DNA of 47,483 nt, taken from NCBI GenBank assembly GCA_000989765.1, contig LBOW01000003.1, positions 1-47,483 on the forward strand, written 5' to 3'. A program made the translations under genes and the position numbers. Under the pieces are notes generated by a model. That model did not search any database and was not told the DNA's origin. It saw only the letters and a list, made by a program, of their open reading frames with translations. This document shows, in pieces, positions 37,617-40,466 of the stretch (positions are counted from its first letter, which is position 1; each line of letters starts with the position of its first letter). This DNA is from Candidatus Woesebacteria bacterium GW2011_GWB1_33_22. GTDB lineage: Bacteria > Patescibacteriota > Microgenomatia > UBA8517.

Positions 37617-37630
37617 ATAAGTTTTTAAAG

Positions 37631-37702
37631 TGCCAGCGACAGGATTCGGACCTGTGACCTTAGTCTTATGAAAACTCCGCTCTACCACTGAGCTACGCTG
37701 GC
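37631..37702 (-). tRNA. tRNA-Met(CAU), elongator type
   Basis: Acceptor GCCAGCG pairs with CGCTGGC, discriminator A; D arm GCTCAGTGGTAGAGC; anticodon loop TTCATAA with CAT; T arm ACAGG-TCCGAAT-CCTGT. A G27-A43 mismatch is seen in the anticodon stem. The body resembles elongator tRNA-Met rather than initiator. No CCA encoded. An Ile2 role (C34 modified to lysidine) is less likely because tRNA-Ile(UAU) is at 40467. Confidence 0.92.
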
Positions 37703-37719
37703 ATAGACTGTATTTTATA

Positions 37720-38400
37720 TTAATCAGCCTGCAATCTCAAACCTTCAATAAAACCATATATTTTCCTTAAAAAATCTTTACTTTTTAAGACTTTTACTCT
37801 TAAAACACCAAAGTATTCGTTCGGGTGTTCATATACTTTTTGCCATTTTACATTCTGGTAAAATGGTTTTCTAAAATTTGAAATTGGTATCTCTACTTCT
37901 TTTGACCAATAATTCTGAACTTCATTAATTCTATCTGCATGTGAAATATTTAATGTAACACGCACAGAAAAATCATTGACTCCATACCTAAAACATTTAT
38001 CCAACCACTTCAAAAATAATTTGATCATTTTAGGATCAGAATTGGCAAAACCGACCTGACTATCTTTTTTAAACCCTTCTCCCCAATATAACGCTACCCC
38101 AACTAAAAACAATTCTCTCTTAGATAAACTACCAACATCTTTAATTCCTTCTTTTTTAAGTCTATCTATTTTCTGATTTGTTAATTTTTTTATCTTATTT
38201 ATATATTTAAGCCTGTTTCCATAGTATGGATTTCTTGCATTTTCAGCTAATTTATCAAATTGATCTTTTGTTAAAACAACATCTCTTACCCAAGTGCTTA
38301 CGGAACTTACTGAAACATTAATTTTCTTGGCTATAAACTTTATACTTAATCCTTGTTTTCTTAGTTTAATAGCCTCAATTTTTTCTAATGATCTAGCCAT
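37720..38400 (-). CDS. HTH protein with LAGLIDADG-like endonuclease domain
   Basis: 226 residues. Residues 1-40 form a helix-turn-helix (EAIKLRKQGLSIKFIAKKINVSVSSVSTWVRD). After a basic helix comes LVGVALYWGEGFKKDSQVGFANSDPKMIKLFLKWL (about 95-130), the LAGLIDADG-like pattern LYW.EG.K....F.NSDP.M...FL.WL that occurs in HTH/homing endonuclease-like proteins in archaea and Patescibacteria. It faces away from the intron-containing tRNA with 84 bp between. It may be a relic of a mobile element or a regulator. Confidence 0.75.
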   Translation of the reverse strand: MARSLEKIEAIKLRKQGLSIKFIAKKINVSVSSVSTWVRDVVLTKDQFDKLAENARNPYYGNRLKYINKIKKLTNQKIDRLKKEGIKDVGSLSKRELFLVGVALYWGEGFKKDSQVGFANSDPKMIKLFLKWLDKCFRYGVNDFSVRVTLNISHADRINEVQNYWSKEVEIPISNFRKPFYQNVKWQKVYEHPNEYFGVLRVKVLKSKDFLRKIYGFIEGLRLQAD

Positions 38401-38438: not shown

Positions 38439-38467
38439 TTGTTAAATAAATTAAATTAAGTTATAAT
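38439..38467 (+). promoter_or_regulatory. Promoter of the intron-containing tRNA
   Basis: TTGTTA (38439-38444), 17-bp spacer, TATAAT (38462-38467), 17 bases ahead of the tRNA 5' end (38485). Confidence 0.65.
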
Positions 38468-38608
38468 ATGTTTTGTTCGTTACATGCGGGGTAGTGTACA
38501 GTGCACGTGAGGCTTGATGAAAATTGGGCCACTTTAATAGCAATATTAAAAGTGAAACTTGGCTATATCGGGGAACGCCTTATTAAATTGAGGTCAATCC
38601 CGAGGGAA

Positions 38609-38628
38609 CCCTGAGAAAGGTCGAAGGG
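38609..38628 (+). repeat. CCCTGAGAAAGGTCGAAGGG element in intron P6
   Basis: A variant of the dispersed 20-bp element (consensus TCCTGAGCGAAGTCGAAGGA). Its CCCT/AGGG ends form the P6a stem of the group I intron. Confidence 0.65.
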
Positions 38629-38652
38629 ACTCCGTAGAGACTACACGCCAAG

Positions 38653-38677
38653 CATCCTGAGCAATGTCGAATGGATG
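38653..38677 (+). repeat. CATCCTGAGCAATGTCGAAT..GGATG element in intron P8
   Basis: Second variant in the same intron, at P8, with CATCC/GGATG as closing stem. Confidence 0.55.
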
Positions 38678-38772
38678 AAGAGATAGTCCGGCACTCTAAG
38701 TAATTAGAGATTACAGAAAGCATAATCTCACAGGTTGGGCGCAACTCCCAACCCCGCAACCAAATTTCGACT

Positions 38773-39024
38773 ATGTATTTTGTATATATTTTGTTGTGTG
38801 AAGATGACAGTTTATATACTGGGTACTCAAACAATCCCCAAAAACGTTTTTTAGATCATAAAAACGGTAAGGGTGGAAAATATACAAAATCGCACAAACC
38901 AATTAAACAAATTTACTTAGAAAAATTATCTTCTAAATCTGATGCGTTAAAAAGAGAAGCTCAAATCAAGAGTTGGACTAGGTTTAAAAAGATCAAAGTT
39001 CTTAAATTAGATTTACTTAAATAG
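38773..39024 (+). CDS. GIY-YIG nuclease-like protein (UPF0213/YhbQ type)
   Basis: 83 residues. YFVYILLCEDDSLYTGYSNN carries the GIY-YIG equivalents (VYI...LYTGY), then RFLDHKNGKGGKYTKSH with the conserved Arg and His region, and an ALKREAQIKSWTR..KI motif with the Glu. This is the small stand-alone subfamily common in bacteria and abundant in Patescibacteria. It starts 11 bases after the intron-bearing tRNA but is outside the intron, so a homing role is not proven. Confidence 0.9.
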   Translation: MYFVYILLCEDDSLYTGYSNNPQKRFLDHKNGKGGKYTKSHKPIKQIYLEKLSSKSDALKREAQIKSWTRFKKIKVLKLDLLK

Positions 39025-40452: not shown

Positions 40453-40466
40453 TAGATATTATTTTG

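Follow-up and report, generated by a model that had tools for sequence, protein, structure and literature searches.

A compact group I intron interrupts the only initiator tRNA gene that we detected in the genome, that of a tiny uncultured bacterium, represented by the present window (the whole stretch of 47,483 nt that was analysed). Across the class such introns usually lie beside one particular gene, encoding an HTH/LAGLIDADG-like protein, which suggests a two-part mobile element residing in a gene on which the start of every protein depends. We consider it probable that an IC3-like ribozyme removes this intron from the sole detected initiator tRNA and that the adjacent protein promotes its homing in trans. 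Below we describe the anatomy of the intron, the unusual features of its host tRNA, the distribution of both elements among relatives, and the alternatives that these observations leave less probable.

The intron occupies positions 38515-38720 (+), is 206 nt long, contains no ORF, and is inserted between U33 and C34, inside the anticodon loop. A sequence-only reading of this DNA had proposed a group I intron with a complete P1-P9 core of about 206 nt, a terminal G and a U-G pair at the 5' splice site, and had named an Infernal search against Rfam as its check. That search (cmscan) matched the full model of Intron_gpI, RF00028, to positions 38505-38710 (+), scoring 81.6 bits where the gathering threshold is 50 (E 2.6e-19) and confirming the group I assignment; the length of 206 nt and the terminal G (omega-G, at 38720) also proved accurate. 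The fold predicted for the precursor is markedly stable (z = -3.74), with none of 200 shuffled sequences equally so. Size and GNRA-type L2 and L9 loops are consistent with a likeness to small IC3 introns such as that of Azoarcus, and by this comparison the intron may be described as compact and IC3-like.

We extracted and aligned thirty introns that relatives carry at this site; across P1-P10, standard pairs fill 93.8% of cells. Both sides have changed in 26 of 46 pairs, a result as good as which arose in none of 500 shuffles, and pairing falls to 35-46% when partners are slid out of register as a control. P1 joins exon positions 38511-38514 to the internal guide at 38527-38530 (99.2% paired cells), and the splice-site pair U38514.G38527 is U.G in 30 of 30 introns, as the earlier reading had it for the window. 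In P10, U38525-G38526 pair with C38721-A38722; the first two pairs form in all 30 introns, and the outer two partially. P2 (38530-38554) carries a GCAA loop, read from the sequence, and is followed by P3 (38558-38563/38647-38652; 96.7% paired cells), P4 (38568-38573/38598-38603; 100%), P5 (38577-38579/38592-38594; placed by the alignment and by sequence reading) and P6 (38604-38606/38631-38633; 95.6%). P7, the G-binding helix, is pseudoknotted with P3 (38639-38643/38684-38688) and is paired in 100% of cells, that is, in 30 of 30 introns; P8 (38653-38657/38673-38677) reaches 80%, and the P9 hairpin with its GUAA loop (38694-38709) 100%, with double changes in five of its six pairs. All of these elements lie on the forward strand. 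The core helices covary, those of the P3/P7 pseudoknot among them, which upholds the claim of a complete core. The omega-G ends the intron of the window and that of every sampled relative except one genome (G027, locus L050), in which the initiator-tRNA intron apparently ends in A.

The flanking exons comprise positions 1-33 of the tRNA (38485-38514, +) and C34 to A76 (38721-38762, +), the latter closed by a templated CCA at 38760-38762. The 5' exon recurs in the same architecture, and the 3' exon in uninterrupted homologues, among relatives. ARAGORN did not report the interrupted gene on the raw window, and called tRNA-Met(CAT) once the exons were joined. The exon and intron coordinates given by the earlier reading, and its statement that the joined exons make a tRNA, were correct; it had overlooked the T-loop CGCAACT, the shortened D-loop, the divergent ORF and a second group I intron, in tRNA-Asp, all taken up below. 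According to passages in PMC8450103, tRNAscan-SE is not designed for such introns, which also account for 36 bacterial genomes that lack a predicted fMet or Ile2 gene. Since one program misses the interrupted gene and the other is not designed for it, initiator tRNAs may go reported as missing in Patescibacteria. A promoter-like sequence, TTGTTA-17-TATAAT, precedes the tRNA (38439-38467, +), overlapped by a divergent promoter-like site before the neighbouring ORF (38445-38417, -); both were called by a consensus scan alone, in which sites were no more numerous than in shuffled sequences.

The genome (860 kb in 19 contigs, 97% complete) contains 37 tRNAs recognized by Rfam models, and reading these individually disclosed no second initiator; a search of the genome for an initiator-like 3'-half pattern found a matching acceptor in the split gene alone. 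The sole other CAU tRNA (37630-37702, -) is an elongator tRNA-Met by ARAGORN, Rfam and sequence reading, with a G1-C72 pair and without a templated CCA, a feature described in part of PMC5143459 as being of high frequency in bacterial initiator genes. The split gene combines the CAU anticodon with the weak or mismatched 1:72 pair expected of an initiator, U1:A72, and U1 or C1 with A72 recurs in 104 of 106 parsed rows. It has U11:A24, read from the sequence, in place of the initiator mark A11:U24, and AGG:UCU in place of GGG:CCC at 29-31:39-41, likewise in most of the lineage. This deviation of the anticodon stem lies within 38511-38514 and 38721-38729 of the window. Of 38 relatives, 36 carry a homologue of the joined exons, full-length in most and split at the same point in the others, and the Met-tRNA formyltransferase Fmt is present here as in all 36 genomes tested. 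The named records of these relatives, which belong to the Microgenomates (Woesebacteria, Levybacteria, Gottesmanbacteria and others), support the earlier attribution to Patescibacteria, and more closely to a Woesebacteria-like member of the class Microgenomatia. The suggestion of a probable initiator is thus supported by the conserved homologues, the failure to find another initiator, the elongator-like second CAU tRNA and the presence of Fmt, and the evidence supports the split gene as the sole initiator tRNA detected in this 97%-complete genome. If no second initiator sits in the missing ~3%, splicing would be required for translation initiation.

The host tRNA departs from convention in its elbow as well. 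Its T-loop (38743-38749), which holds position 55, reads CGCAACT against the usual TTCRANY, and its D-loop (38498-38503), which holds position 18, is shortened, with AG in place of GG. These features, together with the anticodon stem that lacks GGG:CCC, might be read as signs that the CAU tRNA is a decaying copy, or a tRNA-Ile2, rather than a working initiator, and that the intron has no essential role. The pattern of variation across the class argues otherwise: in 92 distinct tRNAs the combination at 18-55 is A-G (42), G-U (41) or G-C (9) and no other, and when mutual information was computed for every pair of columns, 18-55, at 0.995 bits, was the lone non-helical pair to rank with the stems. 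Because the two positions covary without exception, as G18-Y55 or A18-G55, the odd T-loop is compensated and not decayed. As to a tRNA-Ile2, the genome has a tRNA-Ile(UAU) at 40466 (ARAGORN), which reads AUA, and TilS was not found in it, the search cut-off being reached in none of 19 genomes; a lysidine-type CAU tRNA-Ile2 is therefore not expected. With orthologues, split ones counted, in 36 of 38 relatives and an elongator-like second CAU tRNA besides, we regard decay or an Ile2 identity as very improbable and rejected both. Residues G18 and U55 of the elbow are described as universally conserved in a passage of PMC7912444. A search for the Psi55 synthase TruB detected it in seven of 36 relatives and not in the genome of the window; all seven have U or C at position 55 and never G. 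The A18-G55 exchange concerns the nearly universal G18-Psi55 pair of the elbow, and is confined, in this sample, to genomes without detectable TruB.

Among the matches listed, an intron lies exactly at U33/C34 in 37 of 118 named loci, 79 being uninterrupted and two ambiguous, in a sample of at least 118 named loci that is biased by having been matched on the exact 5'-exon pattern. At one locus (L119, LCJH01000009.1) the match to the initiator intron ends past the P6 region and gives way to unrelated sequence, possibly reflecting an insertion or an assembly break. Group I introns are frequent in the relatives, occurring in 25 of 36 genomes, where they also interrupt tRNA-Asp(GUC) and tRNA-Asn(GUU), by our reading after U35.

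The neighbour of the initiator tRNA in the window is a 226-aa ORF (37720-38400, -), divergent from the tRNA and starting 85 bp upstream of it. Homologues occupy the same place in 23 of 35 intron-bearing loci and in one of 69 intron-free loci (p = 2.5e-13, among the matches listed that have enough flank), a significance that is overstated to the extent that such tests treat related genomes as independent, although we regard the linkage itself as secure. Intron and ORF recur together in Woese-, Levy-, Gottesman-, Ames-, Roizman- and Blackburnbacteria, with ORF starts 47-114 bp upstream of the tRNA, one fragmentary case apart. Only six of 32 copies of the ORF family fall elsewhere in the 859 kb of listed loci; in 36 whole genomes, 14 of the 16 copies scoring above 240 bits have a tRNA group I intron no farther than ~150 bp away, and the genome of the window contains exactly one copy, that beside the initiator tRNA. 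Loci differ in state: some have the intron with an intact gene, one (G026) has it with a broken copy containing six stops, 12 of the 35 intron-bearing loci (matches listed) have the intron with no ORF nearby, and others present an empty site. Taken together, these loci represent every stage of a homing cycle. At a single locus, L136, the ORF is found next to a tRNA that lacks the intron and has a normal-looking anticodon arm. Divergence of the ORF is uncorrelated with that of the intron (Mantel r near 0), so that the two are not a strictly co-inherited unit; this fits partners that re-associate, as in collaborative homing. On the opposite side, 10 bp downstream of the initiator tRNA, the window contains an 83-aa GIY-YIG ORF (38773-39024). 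Homologues of this ORF served as an internal control, being equally common near initiator tRNAs with and without the intron (p = 0.76, matches listed), and for want of linkage we rejected it as the partner of the intron.

The 226-aa ORF has an N-terminal HTH (HTH_23, E 2.9e-6), and the remainder of the protein carries the motif ALYWxEGxK...NSDP. A profile of the ORF family matches I-DmoI around its second LAGLIDADG motif, aligning ALYWxEGxK with LYVAEGDK, in a weak match of E ~0.001. Pfam gave no LAGLIDADG match among those listed, and in NCBIfam and PHROGs the matches of note fell only in the HTH region. Two AlphaFold models are confident (pLDDT 92-93), and three Foldseek searches with them returned no significant match and no LAGLIDADG structure; the highest-ranking matches, YfiB and IspF, with E >= 0.02 and low TM-scores, were disregarded. 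As confident models yielded no significant fold match, the nuclease assignment is provisional. We accordingly treat the ORF as a candidate freestanding homing endonuclease of LAGLIDADG-like type, a provisional designation that draws on the HTH_23 match, the family profile and the linkage to the intron.

From these observations a mechanism may be envisaged. The precursor would fold into the P3-P9 core, exogenous guanosine would cut after U33 at the U.G pair of P1, and P10 would align C34, so that U33 is joined to C34 and the intron released; only the spliced tRNA would be chargeable, formylatable and able to read AUG. That the sole initiator precursor is spliced we infer from the complete anatomy of the ribozyme. 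The ORF-less intron most likely owes its spread and persistence at this site to the HTH/LAGLIDADG-like protein encoded next to it in divergent orientation, acting in trans; the target of this protein would be the DNA of the anticodon arm in its uninterrupted form. The intron would destroy this target and so protect a genome carrying the endonuclease gene, and when an intron-free allele has been cut, its repair would bring in the intron along with the flanking gene, by the logic of collaborative homing; DNA cleavage, target site and co-conversion are each inferred. If the uninterrupted arm is indeed the target, a genome would be expected to tolerate the endonuclease only if the intron interrupts that site, in keeping with the observed linkage, L136 excepted. 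To the combined proposition that the intron serves as the immunity of the endonuclease through its split target, while in the host tRNA an A18-G55 elbow replaces G18-Psi55, we assign an even chance.

Two other accounts of the association deserve consideration. LAGLIDADG proteins can act as maturases, and the flanking protein might be a maturase of the tRNA intron, instead of or besides a homing endonuclease; the tight linkage of the ORF to tRNA introns and the structure searches that returned no nuclease fold are compatible with such a role. It is made unlikely by the 12 loci where the intron has no ORF nearby and by G026, in which the intron remains beside a broken ORF even though the cell cannot do without this tRNA: loss or decay of the ORF while the intron stays argues against an obligatory maturase. 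The occurrence of the ORF without an intron at L136, and an N-terminal HTH of the DNA-binding type, point in the same direction. Alternatively, the intron might be old, vertically inherited, immobile and repeatedly lost, and the ORF a separate selfish gene or regulator that accumulates at this place. Distances between introns do correlate modestly with those between exons (r ~0.24-0.25, p ~0.01), and no such correlation links the ORF to the intron, as this account would have it; yet the near absence of the ORF from intron-free loci (the single case in 69) and its presence also beside introns of other tRNA genes, which a random neighbour would not show, make it, too, improbable. Homing in trans by the flanking protein thus remains our preferred reading.

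The intron itself is of a known kind. Group I introns interrupt the initiator tRNA-fMet of the cyanobacteria Synechocystis and Gloeobacter (Biniszkiewicz 1994 and Paquin 1997, as cited in a passage of PMC8450103); the Synechocystis intron holds a 150-codon ORF (PMC5733544, in part), and an endonuclease specific for the anticodon region of tRNA-fMet has been reported (Bonocora and Shub 2001, as cited in a passage of PMC3984707). The intron described here is similar, at the level of the loop at which the two were compared, in lying in an initiator anticodon loop with a linked endonuclease, in our case a candidate; however, the cyanobacterial endonuclease is encoded inside the intron, whereas here the intron is ORF-less and a protein of a different family is encoded on the opposite strand, beyond the tRNA gene. 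The IC3 introns of Azoarcus tRNA-Ile and cyanobacterial tRNA-Leu share the ~200-nt core, the GNRA-type P2 and P9 loops and a tRNA host, but occupy other tRNAs at other insertion points than U33/C34. Collaborative homing is known in phages, from F-CphI and others (passages of PMC3984707 and PMC6083498), where it concerns protein genes; here the setting would be a bacterial chromosomal initiator tRNA with an HTH/LAGLIDADG-like protein, the linkage of the two being consistent with such homing. Group I introns were noted in some tRNAs of circularised CPR genomes (PMC8172020), in passages of that source that mention neither an initiator tRNA nor where such introns are inserted or which gene flanks them. 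A search of the open-licence literature found no paper pairing 'initiator tRNA' with 'Patescibacteria', and within that literature we found no description of U33/C34 as a class-wide insertion site, of the partner gene outside the intron, or of an initiator elbow with A18-G55. If our reading is correct, these cells can make no protein unless a ribozyme splices one particular transcript, and a selfish pair of DNA elements persists inside the gene for starting translation. The patchy states of the loci, from intron with intact or broken gene to intron alone and empty site, make both the homing cycle and the collaboration directly testable.

Other tRNA genes of these genomes provide further observations. 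A second group I intron in the genome of the window interrupts tRNA-Asp(GUC) after U35 (contig C4:50146-50373, minus strand; L001 1501-1728); no HTH/LAGLIDADG-like homologue was found beside it, and it is common to a genome of the same genus (G001) and others. No match to the initiator tRNA was found in G001, and the intron-like match there proved to be the intron of tRNA-Asn(GUU). This group I intron of tRNA-Asn(GUU) in G001 is adjoined by a member of the same ORF family, in this case downstream and convergent (L204 1455-2396).
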